Below are positions 13,687 to 42,313 of a DNA stretch of 64,000 nucleotides, one piece after another. The number at the start of each line of letters is the position of its first letter. Within the stretch, counting starts at the first letter, position 1. The DNA is from Leptolyngbya sp. FACHB-261 (GTDB lineage Bacteria > Cyanobacteriota > Cyanobacteriia > FACHB-261): contig NZ_JACJPL010000001.1 in the NCBI RefSeq assembly GCF_014696065.1, positions 62,001-126,000 of the forward strand, in the 5' to 3' direction. The translations under genes were made by a program, and so were the position numbers. A model generated the notes under the pieces. The model was not told the origin of the DNA. It made no database searches and saw only the letters and a list, made by a program, of their open reading frames with translations.

Positions 13687-13735
13687 GGTTGAAGAGTGAG
13701 CGGGGAAGTAAGCGAGTGCTATTCAATTCAGCACT

Positions 13736-14260
13736 CTATTCGATGGGCTCAGTGGGGTCAGTGTAGCCCTGGATGTTCTCAGGCCCAAAAGGGCGCAGAA
13801 TGTTGGTCGCGCGCCGAGTTAAGGATTCAGAGCCCCGCACAACGATCAGGTACTTGCCTTGATCCAGACGGTTGCGATAGGTCAGGGCATCACCCCCACC
13901 TACGGCCAGACCGACCCCACCGCCTACCACATAAGCTCCCAAAGCACCCGATAAAGCTCCCAATAAACCGCCTAGCGCCCCATTGCCTAGCGTCCCTAGC
14001 CCCTCTAGTAGAGTGAGGCCAGTAATACGGTTAAAAGCAAAACCGGCAAAAAAGCCAAAGGGGATCAGCCAAGTTGACATGAGATTGATTTGTTTCTGTG
14101 CCTGCTCTTTGGGATCAATCAGGCCGTACTCATCCGCGCTTTTGTAACCGCGACCTAGAATCGCTACTGCCTGCATCGGCAGATCTTCTTTTTCCAAAGC
14201 GGTATAGGCCGCTTCAGCCGTATTTCGGTCACTGAGGACGGTAACCAAATAGTTGGACAT
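13736..14260 (-). CDS. Membrane protein with Gly-rich segment, general-stress (YflT-like) N-terminus
   Basis: I start this gene at ATG 14260 (MSNYLVTVLSDRN), with AAGGA close upstream; a longer frame to 14287 adds only nine unlikely residues. The 174-residue protein begins with a small alpha/beta region (YLVTVLSDRNTAEAAYTALEKEDLPM, about 4-29) like those found in general-stress proteins. A hydrophobic glycine-rich region of about 70 residues follows (about 62-125, LEGLGTLGNGALGGLLGALSG) and could form two membrane hairpins. The last part, GKYLIVVRGSESLTRRATNILRPF, returns to a ferredoxin-like strand-helix pattern. Homologues in cyanobacteria are hypothetical proteins. Function unknown. Confidence 0.72.
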   Translation of the reverse strand: MSNYLVTVLSDRNTAEAAYTALEKEDLPMQAVAILGRGYKSADEYGLIDPKEQAQKQINLMSTWLIPFGFFAGFAFNRITGLTLLEGLGTLGNGALGGLLGALSGALGAYVVGGGVGLAVGGGDALTYRNRLDQGKYLIVVRGSESLTRRATNILRPFGPENIQGYTDPTEPIE

Positions 14261-36297: not shown

Positions 36298-36411
36298 CTA
36301 CAGATCAAAGGGATTACCACGCCGATACTGCAGGTAGGCAGCTGTAAACAGGCCCCCCAAAGTCACCAAAATCAAACCAATGACAATACCGTCCAGAATC
36401 GGTTCAATCAC
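36298..36411 (-). CDS. petG: Cytochrome b6f complex subunit PetG
   Basis: PetG is the 37-residue single-span subunit needed for assembly and stability of the cytochrome b6f complex in the thylakoid membrane. Reading the minus strand from GTG 36411 gives (M)[19 protein letters not shown] followed by [17 protein letters not shown] and a TAG stop. The acidic start, the GL.L.TLGGLF.AAY.QY core and the exact length of 37 all match PetG. Its initiation codon is GTG. A perfect terminator follows at 36237-36271, so it is a monocistronic unit. It is too short for many gene-finders. Confidence 0.93.
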
Positions 36412-38728: not shown

Positions 38729-39703
38729 CTAGTAAAGTCGGTTCAAGACGTACTCAGTCAGGTCAATCAGTGCTTGACGAGAGACCGAGGGTGGCAATCC
38801 AGCTAGACAATCTACCGCTGAACGGGCATGTTTAGCTGCCAGATCCTTGGTCAGCGCGAGGCCATTGCTGTCTTCGATCAAACCTAGAGCCTGTTGCAAG
38901 TCTCCGGGCTGGGCGAACTGTCGCTCGATTAGAGGCTCAAGTTGGGGCTTGCTGCGCAGGGCAAAGAGGACGGGTGCAGTCAAGTTGCCCTGACGTAAAT
39001 CAGAGCCTGCGGGCTTGCCCAGAGCCTCGGTGGAACTGGTGAAGTCCAACAGATCATCCACAATCTGAAAGGCAATGCCAAAGTGACGCCCATATTCGTA
39101 GAGTTGCTCAGCTAACTCTGGCTCAACCCCACTCAGAACCGCTGCCGCTTTAGCACTACCAGACATCAGCGATGCCGTTTTGTAAAAGCTCTTGTCTAGA
39201 TAGTCCTCAATGGACAAACTAGTATCAAACTGCGTCAGACTTTGACGAATCTCCCCCTCAGCTAAGTCAGTAATGACCTTAGAGAGCAGCTTGACAACCT
39301 CTAAGTTGTCTAAATTCGCCAGATACCAGGATGATTGCGCGAATAGATAATCGCCCGCTAATACGGCAACTCGATTACCAAACAGACTGTTGACTGTATC
39401 AACACCGCGGCGAATATCAGCTGTGTCGATCACATCGTCATGAACCAGGCTAGCAGTGTGAATCATTTCGGTGATCTCTGCCAGGCGGCGGTGGCGCGCC
39501 GAGATTCCCTGTCCTGGCGGTACCGTGGCCTGGGCAATCAGTAAGACGATTGCAGGCCTAAGCCCCTTACCTTGAGCCTCGAACAGGTGCTCGGCTGCCG
39601 CATAGAGAATTGGGTGACGGGCGCCAACGAGCTTCTTGAGGTTTGCACTCAAGGCACTCAGCTCTGCTTCAACCGGTGCAAAGAGGGAAGTCACTGAGGT
39701 CAT
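38729..39703 (-). CDS. sds: Solanesyl diphosphate synthase
   Basis: This 324-residue all-trans polyprenyl diphosphate synthase makes the C45 side chain used for plastoquinone-9. The two Asp-rich motifs are LVHDDVIDTADIRRG (about 91-105) and QIVDDLLDFTSS (about 216-227). GKGLRPAIVLLIA and the FARM-adjacent residues suit a long-chain product. The end, SRQALIDLTEYVLNRLY, is the cyanobacterial form. Start ATG 39703. It stands alone in the window, and lepB is downstream after 130 bp. Confidence 0.93.
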   Translation of the reverse strand: MTSVTSLFAPVEAELSALSANLKKLVGARHPILYAAAEHLFEAQGKGLRPAIVLLIAQATVPPGQGISARHRRLAEITEMIHTASLVHDDVIDTADIRRGVDTVNSLFGNRVAVLAGDYLFAQSSWYLANLDNLEVVKLLSKVITDLAEGEIRQSLTQFDTSLSIEDYLDKSFYKTASLMSGSAKAAAVLSGVEPELAEQLYEYGRHFGIAFQIVDDLLDFTSSTEALGKPAGSDLRQGNLTAPVLFALRSKPQLEPLIERQFAQPGDLQQALGLIEDSNGLALTKDLAAKHARSAVDCLAGLPPSVSRQALIDLTEYVLNRLY

Positions 39704-40244
39704 GTATTGGGCTACTCAGGCACGCAAATTATCGGAACGTTACGAAATCTTACACACTCTTTCACATTCTAGGCCACCCGCTACCGCTTCGAAAGGAGAA
39801 TTGCTGTGCATTCTCTTGATCCTGAAAATACCTACTTGAAAGGGACTGGCGTTGCCAACGACTGGGTTGGTACTGCAAGAATGTATAGACTTGCAAACTA
39901 TAGCCTCAAGAAAGTCTCAGAATCCGGTTGCCGTGCTACCATGCACTCAGATTTACCCACAATCGAATATCCCACCTGAAGCAGCGAAGAGCAAGCTTTA
40001 GAGGTCGAGACTTTTCCACTGCGATGCTGAAGATCCCCTGGCAACATTTCCTTGCTTTTTAAGGAAAGGCCTTGAGGTGCCGCTGTGATGGTCTCCCGCC
40101 TCATTCTTGAGCGGGCAGCTTCAGGCAGAGGTTTTGCTCAGATTTCTGCTTGCTAGCACTACAAGCTGTGGCGGATAGGCATCAGTTACGGCAGCCTCTA
40201 TACCCCAACAGTCAAGCTTTCTGTTTCTTTGGGCCTGATCTGCA
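39704..40244. other. 541-bp region without a normal gene; possible structured RNA
   Basis: No long credible frame is present; a 69-codon minus frame (39898-40104) lacks protein character. The promoter of sds lies at the left end. TATAGA near 39884 could be a plus-strand -10 box. From 39975 to 40125 the sequence holds several complementary segments (described separately). The right end leads into the 37-residue ORF at 40245. Confidence 0.55.
39975..40125 (+). ncRNA. Candidate structured RNA, identity unknown
   Basis: The ends CCTGAAGC (39975-39982) and GCTTCAGG (40118-40125) are perfectly complementary and would close a 150-nt domain. Within it, TTTCCTT (40047-40053) pairs with AAGGAAA (40061-40067). 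CCCGCCTCA (40095-40103) pairs with TGAGCGGG (40108-40115) with one bulge. The size and closing-stem layout recall 6S RNA, but I cannot confirm a match. The strand is uncertain. Confidence 0.35.
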
Positions 40245-40358
40245 ATGACAAATTTCAACTTGCCCCTGACCATTGTGACCCTTGCGGGTAGCTACCTTCT
40301 GCTGGTCTACCTGTTACTGGGTTTGCTACAGCGGAATAAAATGTCAGGCCGGTCCTAG
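40245..40358 (+). CDS. 37-residue single-span membrane protein
   Basis: ATG 40245 opens a 37-codon frame reading MTNFNLPLTIVTLAGSYLL then LVYLLLGLLQRNKMSGRS and a TAG stop. It has one hydrophobic helix (about residues 6-29) and a basic tail, the layout of small subunits of thylakoid complexes such as Ndh, b6f or photosystem accessory proteins. It matches none of the sequences I can recall (PsbX, PetL, PetM, Psb30). The stop codon lies inside the first arm of a 13-bp intrinsic terminator, which is strong support for an expressed mini-gene. It falls below common length cut-offs. Confidence 0.65.
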   Translation: MTNFNLPLTIVTLAGSYLLLVYLLLGLLQRNKMSGRS

Positions 40359-40391
40359 AACGCCTGTGTTTGAGGCGTTCTAGGACTTTTA
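40352..40391 (+). terminator. Strong intrinsic terminator overlapping the mini-gene stop
   Basis: GTCCTAGAACGCC (40352-40364) and GGCGTTCTAGGAC (40374-40386) pair perfectly over 13 bp, followed by TTTT. The stop codon of the 37-residue ORF is within the first arm. Confidence 0.9.
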
Positions 40392-40425: not shown

Positions 40426-40707
40426 TTAGCTTGCCTTGCTAAAGGACTCCAACAAGAAGCCAATCGCCGGCTTGACCCAACCGGCACTCAAAACCACAGT
40501 GATTCCCAGGAACAGGGTCGTCATTGTCCAGGTAATACGATTGAGCGTTGTCTCTGCGCTACGGGTGCTAGTGAACAGCTGCGCTTGACCACCAATACCG
40601 CCCAATCCATCGCCTTTGGGGCTGTGTAGCAAGATAAGTATCACCAAGCACAGCGCGATCAACGACCAGAGAAAGGTCAGGATGTTGTAGAGCAGAGGAA
40701 TCGTCAT
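40426..40707 (-). CDS. secG: Protein translocase subunit SecG
   Basis: SecG is the small third subunit of the SecYEG channel. I start it at ATG 40707 (MTIPLLYNILTFLWSLIALCL), 7 bp after the gpmI stop; the frame extends upstream to 40770 but then overlaps gpmI. The 93-residue protein has two hydrophobic helices (about 6-26 and 58-80) around the family motif LILLHSPKGDGLGGIGGQAQLFTSTRSAETTLNRITW. The gpmI-secG order is common in cyanobacteria. It shares the downstream region with the convergent mini-gene. Confidence 0.93.
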   Translation of the reverse strand: MTIPLLYNILTFLWSLIALCLVILILLHSPKGDGLGGIGGQAQLFTSTRSAETTLNRITWTMTTLFLGITVVLSAGWVKPAIGFLLESFSKAS

Positions 40708-40714
40708 GGGTTCA

Positions 40715-42313
40715 CTATGCCAGTCGAACGGGCGTTTTGTTGAGGCGGACTTCGTAGTCTGCTGAGACAATCATAGACCGCCCAGTCATCTCTGCTGGGA
40801 CAGGCAGCTGTAGAATTTCCAGGATCGTTGGCGCAATATCTGCCAACTTACCATCACTGCGCAGCTGCGGTTCAGCGCCGTGGCCAGGAATTTTCCGGCC
40901 TTCCCCCTCTACCAAAATGAAGGGCACTGGGTTGGTCGTATGGGCAGTCCAGGGATTCCCATCCTCATCCCACATCTGTTCGGCATTACCGTGATCAGCA
41001 ATGATGATCGCCGTACCACCCACCTGACCAATGCTGTCCAGCAGAGAGCCCAGACAGCGATCGACGGTTTCAATAGCTTGTACAGTTTTCTCGTGGTTGC
41101 CACTGTGACCAACCATGTCTGGGTTGGCATAGTTGACGACTACCAGGGCGTACTCTCGTTTGCGGATGGCCCGAGCGGTCACCTGAGTGACTTGCTCAGC
41201 GGACATCTCGGGCTGTTGATCGTAGGTTGCCACCATGGGGCTTGGAATTAGTTCCCGGTCTTCGCCCGCAAAGGGCTCCTCTATGCCGCCATTGAAGAAG
41301 TAGGTGACGTGAGCATATTTTTCTGTCTCCGCCACTCGAAACTGCTTGAGTTTGTTGCGAGCAATCACCTCTCCTAAAATGTTGCTCAAGTTCTGGGGCG
41401 GAAAGGCTACGGGCACCTGGGGCAGGGCAGAGTCATACTGCGTGAAAGTGGTGAAATGCAGAGGTTGGATGCGCTCCCGCTCGAAGCCCTTGAAGTCGAC
41501 CGCGACAAACGCTTGGGTGAGTTCGCGAGCCCGATCGGGGCGGAAGTTAAAGAAGATCAAACCATCGCCAGGCTCAACGGCTCCAGGGGCAAGGCGAGTA
41601 GGTACCAAGAATTCGTCTGTGATGCCTTCAGCGTAGGAGGCGCTCAGCACAGCTTCGGCGGTTCGGCCATCGCCAGGGCCATCCTGAGTCATCAGGGTGT
41701 ACACCTGCTGCACACGGTCCCAGCGCCGATCTCGATCCATACCGTAATAGCGACCACTAAGGGTGGCGATGCGACCAACCCCTAAACGGGCGATTTGAGA
41801 CTCAATTGCCCGAATGGAGGTAATGGCTGATGTGGGCGTAGTGTCACGGCCATCAGTTAGGGCATGAATGCAAACATCTTCAAGGCCCTGCTGCTGGGCG
41901 AGCTCCAGCAGAGCTAATAGGTGATCAATATGGGAGTGCACCCCGCCGTCTGAACACAAGCCCACCAAATGCAACTTGGTGCCATTCGCTTTAACCGCCT
42001 CACAGGTCTCAACTAGAACTGGGTTGGCTAGTAGGCTGCCATCCTCGACCGCATCTGAGATGCGAACGAGCTCTTGGGGTACCACGCGCCCTGCTCCGAT
42101 GTTGAGGTGGCCCACCTCGGAGTTGCCCATCTGGCCTCGGGGTAAACCGACTTCTTTGCCAGAGGTGTGAATCAGTGCGTGAGGGTAAACTGCCCATAGA
42201 CTGTCCATGACAGGCGTTTTGGCAGCAGCAATGGCGTTGCCATCCGTTTCCTCACGGTATCCCCACCCGTCGAGAATAATCAGAACAACTGGGGAGACAG
42301 GTGCCTGAGCCAT
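40715..42313 (-). CDS. gpmI: 2,3-bisphosphoglycerate-independent phosphoglycerate mutase
   Basis: GpmI interconverts 3- and 2-phosphoglycerate in glycolysis, using two Mn2+ ions. It has 532 residues. The N-terminal motif LIILDGWGYREETDGNAI is at about residues 11-28. The phosphoserine nucleophile is in GQMGNSEVGHLNIGAGR (about 59-75), and HALTDGRDT (about 149-157) with FFNFRPDRARELT follows. The metal ligands near the C-terminus are VVNYANPDMVGHSG and IIADHGNAEQMWDEDG (about 454-469). Start ATG 42313. It is probably co-transcribed with secG. Confidence 0.96.
   Translation of the reverse strand: MAQAPVSPVVLIILDGWGYREETDGNAIAAAKTPVMDSLWAVYPHALIHTSGKEVGLPRGQMGNSEVGHLNIGAGRVVPQELVRISDAVEDGSLLANPVLVETCEAVKANGTKLHLVGLCSDGGVHSHIDHLLALLELAQQQGLEDVCIHALTDGRDTTPTSAITSIRAIESQIARLGVGRIATLSGRYYGMDRDRRWDRVQQVYTLMTQDGPGDGRTAEAVLSASYAEGITDEFLVPTRLAPGAVEPGDGLIFFNFRPDRARELTQAFVAVDFKGFERERIQPLHFTTFTQYDSALPQVPVAFPPQNLSNILGEVIARNKLKQFRVAETEKYAHVTYFFNGGIEEPFAGEDRELIPSPMVATYDQQPEMSAEQVTQVTARAIRKREYALVVVNYANPDMVGHSGNHEKTVQAIETVDRCLGSLLDSIGQVGGTAIIIADHGNAEQMWDEDGNPWTAHTTNPVPFILVEGEGRKIPGHGAEPQLRSDGKLADIAPTILEILQLPVPAEMTGRSMIVSADYEVRLNKTPVRLA

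Follow-up and report, generated by a model that had tools for sequence, protein, structure and literature searches.

A short open reading frame upstream of sds in the cyanobacterium Leptolyngbya sp. FACHB-261 is almost certainly a real, conserved, and translated gene for a membrane micro-protein. The mini-gene occupies positions 40245–40358 of the forward strand of the window (the whole stretch of 64,000 nucleotides analyzed here). It opens with ATG, runs for 37 codons, and closes with TAG at 40356–40358, encoding the peptide MTNFNLPLTIVTLAGSYLLLVYLLLGLLQRNKMSGRS. Its most constant neighbor by far is the divergently transcribed gene for solanesyl diphosphate synthase, and the conserved residues of its single predicted helix are concentrated on one face. 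Our favored reading, to which we assign a probability of roughly 0.5 as a joint statement, is that the gene is real and conserved and that its product acts as a one-helix subunit, accessory or regulatory in role, packing into a larger, probably thylakoid, complex.

How widespread is the mini-protein among cyanobacteria? A search with the single window sequence gave matches at E ≤ 1 in 160 of 388 Cyanobacteriia genomes, although many were weak, and a common pattern unites the 29 best non-self loci. When an 18-sequence profile was run across the phylum, 122 of 386 genomes had a match at E ≤ 0.1. Fifteen of these genomes lie outside the class; their matches are weak, with the best (E = 3.4e-4) falling in a stop-containing frame of 447 aa, and we therefore take the family to be confined to Cyanobacteriia. 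With a 26-sequence profile at E ≤ 0.01, the mini-protein was found in 193 of 388 Cyanobacteriia genomes, representing 103 of 155 genera, and no match was found in the remaining 195. The window copy, from a genome that is the sole representative of its order among those compared, matches the family profile at E = 1e-13 and carries all of the invariant or near-invariant residues (A14, Y17, L18, Y22, and L25). A diverged homologue is present in four of five genomes of the genus of genome G064, which, judging by gene order, is probably Synechocystis. All four of these loci contain sds, and all four homologues score weakly (E = 8e-4 to 2e-3 for three of them).

Is the genomic position of the mini-gene conserved as well? 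In the window, its divergent neighbor is sds (38729–39703, reverse strand), identified by TIGR02749 above its cut-off (E = 2e-158) and by PF00348; the enzyme, solanesyl diphosphate synthase, makes the plastoquinone side chain. Among the 29 best non-self loci, of which 1.5 kb on each side was examined, sds was found in 23. Among 21 loci of 12 kb (20 plus that of the window), 20 have sds as the divergent neighbor; 9 have a convergent murI-like gene, and amidase genes are present in 6 (one representative of each was named by Pfam). Starting instead from sds in named genomes, using the best 80 of 570 confirmed loci, we found the mini-gene divergently upstream in 56, at a spacing of 454–1,891 bp. 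Another 20 of these sds loci lack it, and in 4 the upstream DNA is too short to tell; a wider profile applied to these 24 loci recovered nothing convincing (best E = 0.15). The presence of homologues at the same position in relatives was a test set in advance, and it came out in favor of the gene: in 40 further mini-gene loci, hand-picked among the matches listed with weak ones included and one per genome, sds is divergent in 35, at 385–1,951 bp, and in any other arrangement in none. It is absent from the stretch in the other five, one of which is ended by a contig end. Six of the 40 duplicate loci in earlier sets (the sets used for all of these neighborhood counts share a few loci), and among the 34 new ones divergent sds occurs in 29. 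The mini-gene thus typically diverges from sds across roughly 0.4–2 kb, and the window copy, at 541 bp, lies within this range. Overall, the sds-linked mini-gene appears to have been maintained over much of cyanobacterial evolution and to be missing in several lineages. With no match at E ≤ 0.01 in 195 of 388 genomes, and none upstream of sds at 20 of the 76 named loci that could be judged, it would seem dispensable in many cyanobacteria.

The adjacency to sds suggests that the partner of the micro-protein may be either a plastoquinone-using thylakoid complex or Sds itself. If the latter, the micro-protein would provide a membrane docking point for the prenyl synthase or for the lipid that it makes, much as fibrillin 5 acts with the solanesyl diphosphate synthase of plants. 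The constancy of sds compared with the murI-like gene (20/21 vs. 9/21), which extends to the further loci, argues for such a partnership. However, Sds evidently needs no such partner at the 20 testable loci without an upstream mini-gene, and the two genes are divergent and hundreds of base pairs apart, so that they are not cotranscribed as an operon. We consider this explanation rather unlikely. A related proposal, in which a one-helix adaptor encoded head-to-head with sds would couple plastoquinone supply to the membrane by using its Ala/Tyr/Leu face to dock either a plastoquinone-using complex or Sds, strikes us as somewhat less probable still. The same gene arrangement also counts against the favored subunit reading: the contribution of sds to electron transport in the membrane is an indirect one, and genes that diverge form no operon.

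What does the DNA between the two genes contain? In the window, the intergenic region spans 541 bp (39704–40244), of which the stretch proximal to sds is, across loci, the most widely shared part; the window copy of this stretch is weaker and matches only two other loci at E < 1e-3. Within it lies a direct repeat upstream of sds, GTTACGAAATCTTACACA (39739–39756, forward strand), which agrees with 13 of the 16 positions of the HLR1 consensus of RpaB. Elsewhere, GTTACGAAAGTTTACATA or close variants of it stand about 20–45 nt upstream of the sds start (L079–L158). Where the mini-gene is present, 48 of 56 loci have an HLR1-like site with at least 14 of 16 positions; of the 23 loci in which no mini-gene was found (20 lacking it plus 3 too short; L110 was dropped for too little upstream DNA), 18 have one, as against 4 of 1,580 shuffled sequences. 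The window score of 13 was equaled or exceeded in 66 of the 1,580 shuffles. Because loci in which no mini-gene was found have the site just as often, we assign it to sds and reject it as evidence for the mini-gene. It suggests that plastoquinone side-chain synthesis may be under light/redox control; in a literature search linking RpaB or HLR1 with this enzyme, the word "solanesyl" appeared in none of the matches listed. We also rejected an RNA gene in the intergenic region, given that neither the window nor any of 12 loci had an Rfam match at the gathering threshold; positions 40000–40244 fold no better than shuffled sequences (z = −0.06). Nostocales loci have a conserved block of roughly 130–160 nt in the middle of the gap (e.g., gap positions 401–573 in L085, with similar blocks in L098, L114, and L086). 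This block had no Rfam match in the loci searched and may represent an RNA or an element of a 5′ UTR.

Does the well-studied Anabaena/Nostoc sp. PCC 7120 carry the gene? In that genome, sds is presumably alr0096. The relevant part of one report gives amiC1, amiC2, and murI as alr0092–alr0094 (PMC8472315), and by locus-tag order asl0095 is the leftward small gene directly after murI. In the portion of PMC10406281 concerned, asl0095 is listed as a "hypothetical protein" with a predicted 19-base FurC site, in an entry that also carries the figure 7 in one column. The sequence of this site recurs, with two to three mismatches, 19 bp upstream of the mini-gene (L012/L061, L010, and L033) in three genomes of genus g55 (G492, G106, and G086), hinting that the mini-gene may be under peroxide or redox control by a FurC (PerR)-like regulator in that genus. 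A fourth g55 genome with its locus examined, G598, has no such site within four mismatches. Because locus-tag order and the recurring FurC-like site agree, we take asl0095 to be the probable Anabaena homologue, an assignment made by gene order and upstream site. Another candidate, asl0097, was rejected: it is a different gene, beside hetZ.

The 3′ end of the mini-gene in the window overlaps an intrinsic terminator at 40351–40387 (forward strand), for which a scan gave 15 pairs, a 7-nt loop, and a T-rich tail. Its folding energy of −27.8 kcal/mol (z = −6.55) was equaled by none of 200 shuffles. The first-pass annotation had placed the stop codon inside the first arm of a perfect 13-bp terminator. 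The TAG does sit in the first arm and the terminator is strong, but the stem is longer and less perfect than described: read off the sequence, it has 14 Watson–Crick pairs and one G-U. That annotation also held that such an arrangement is hard to explain unless the frame is expressed, a claim for which we find no support. A terminator marks the end of a transcript and not translation, and the layout alone is therefore no proof that the mini-ORF is translated. Moreover, a terminator-like hairpin lies near the stop in 10 of 56 named homologues (mean 2.55 and maximum 6 in shuffles), one of the 10 being a weak 8-bp stem that overlaps the stop; the stop-in-terminator layout shows no conservation across the 56. 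For ORFs of at least 110 aa in the window, 1 of 56 has a stop touching a stem (a 183-aa ORF with a hairpin at 13714–13736, reverse strand). The layout is in keeping with a single, compact gene that faces its convergent neighbor secG (40426–40770, reverse strand; TIGR00810 and PF03840), to the right of which, in the window, gpmI is also convergent.

Could the transcript have a second role besides coding? It might double as an antisense RNA that continues into whichever gene converges on it (in Anabaena, murI and the amidase genes), in the manner of an excludon. Antisense reads over alr0091–alr0094 in Anabaena are consistent with this (PMC3141674, in a passage that leaves their origin unstated), as are the murI-like genes convergent at 9 of the 21 long loci and the small proportion of homologues with a hairpin near the stop. 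The window copy, however, has a strong terminator and a different convergent neighbor, secG, and the identity of the convergent gene varies whereas the protein is conserved; we judge such an antisense role quite unlikely. Far less probable is a leader peptide or attenuator, in which translation of the ORF would govern the overlapping terminator and hence a downstream gene. The stop codon within the stem is what such a device would show, but the next gene, secG, is convergent and leaves nothing to attenuate on the forward strand; the overlap between stop and terminator is not conserved, and the helix is conserved across many genera at the amino acid level.

The protein-coding sequence itself is under purifying selection. 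Across 385 pairs, which are not independent, the median dN/dS is 0.34, and 99.7% of the values fall below 1 (dS 0.1–2), in keeping with the low ratio looked for as a check on the original observation; the input comprised 57 matched stretches, of which 2 lie within a longer frame and have no start codon at their beginning. Although short ORFs of hydrophobic character abound and many relatives have weak E-values in the single-sequence search, a spurious frame without a product is scarcely credible given the conserved position, the profile matches, the dN/dS values, and the conserved face.

AlphaFold2 (22 sequences) predicts a single helix over residues 5–35 with a mean pLDDT of 82.7, which agrees with the initial description of a 37-residue single-helix membrane protein. 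Conservation is concentrated on one face of this helix (P = 0.0007 by position shuffling of 83 distinct sequences, with phylogeny ignored), made up of I10, A14, Y17, L18, V21, Y22, L25, and A28. A conserved face inside the membrane is expected of a helix that packs on other helices. The C-terminal flank is more positive than the N-terminal flank in 96 of 98 sequences (98 of 99 were counted, duplicates kept), which predicts an N-out/C-in topology.

How might an accessory subunit of this kind act? The micro-protein would span the membrane once, with its N-terminus outside or in the lumen and its basic C-terminus in the cytoplasm. Its conserved face would pack on helices of a larger membrane complex, which is probably one of those in the thylakoid electron-transport machinery that plastoquinone serves, and it would tune the assembly or stability of that complex. 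The computations show the gene, its conservation, its place next to sds, and the purifying selection on it, together with a predicted helix, face, and topology; that the protein is made in Leptolyngbya sp. FACHB-261, resides in the thylakoid, has a protein partner, and is tied to plastoquinone-using complexes is our inference.

About half of the cyanobacterial genomes searched (193/388) thus carry a one-helix protein for which Pfam and NCBIfam have no model. Few membranes have been studied as well as the cyanobacterial thylakoid, and the case illustrates how genes of 30–40 residues escape family databases. Its fixed adjacency to sds and its one conserved helix face make the search for a partner direct.

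How does the mini-protein compare with known families and systems? The first-pass annotation had likened it to the size class of small thylakoid-complex subunits while noting no match to a familiar one, and database searches bear this out. The window protein matched no Pfam or NCBIfam family at E ≤ 10, and 18 family members gave isolated chance-level matches to these collections (best E = 0.035). Searches of the PDB by sequence and with two profiles yielded chance matches alone (best E = 0.12). As a control, the PetG ORF of the same window was identified at once by Pfam and NCBIfam and matched six distinct PDB chains. The petG gene (36298–36411, reverse strand) also encodes 37 aa and lies ~4 kb from the mini-gene. 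In size and in having a single helix, the mini-protein is like PetG-type small thylakoid subunits, but it is unlike the known Pet, Psb, and Psa subunits in sequence, and none of their Pfam or NCBIfam models matched it. No NDH-1 chain was matched in the PDB profile searches, and the PDB copy searched presumably holds the NdhP and NdhQ chains. The lack of a PDB match would count against a permanent place in complexes whose structures come from carrier species. Among the papers listed in literature searches, we recognized no study of the family.

Several small Synechocystis proteins invite comparison. According to Table 2 of PMC5126843, ndhP and ndhQ are separate genes located elsewhere in Synechocystis. 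The same table lists Chr_ORF_2, a candidate for the homologue in Synechocystis PCC 6803, with psaM about 1.6 kb away; near the mini-gene homologue in L163, no psaM was found among hydrophobic ORFs of 28–36 aa within 3.5 kb. Norf4, as described in the relevant part of that study (PMC5126843), has 31 aa and one predicted membrane helix, occurs in 51 cyanobacterial genomes, and is encoded by an mRNA that overlaps gap1. It has a single helix in common with the mini-protein, but we rejected identity because its primer-derived start, MTADQLL (the part compared), is not that of the family. SliP4, earlier called HliR1, is closer in form, with 37 aa and one predicted membrane helix; the 2016 study reports, in the section concerned, no homologue outside Synechocystis (PMC5126843). 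We rejected identity here too, since its primer-derived ends (the parts compared) are unlike those of the family and its location differs, the SliP4 gene lying upstream of sodB and the mini-gene beside sds. The mini-protein is an uncharacterized addition to the small single-span membrane proteins of cyanobacteria. SliP4, which shares its length and single helix and is described in part of a further report as a partner of NDH-1 and the photosystems (PMC12850537), provides a model for how it could work.
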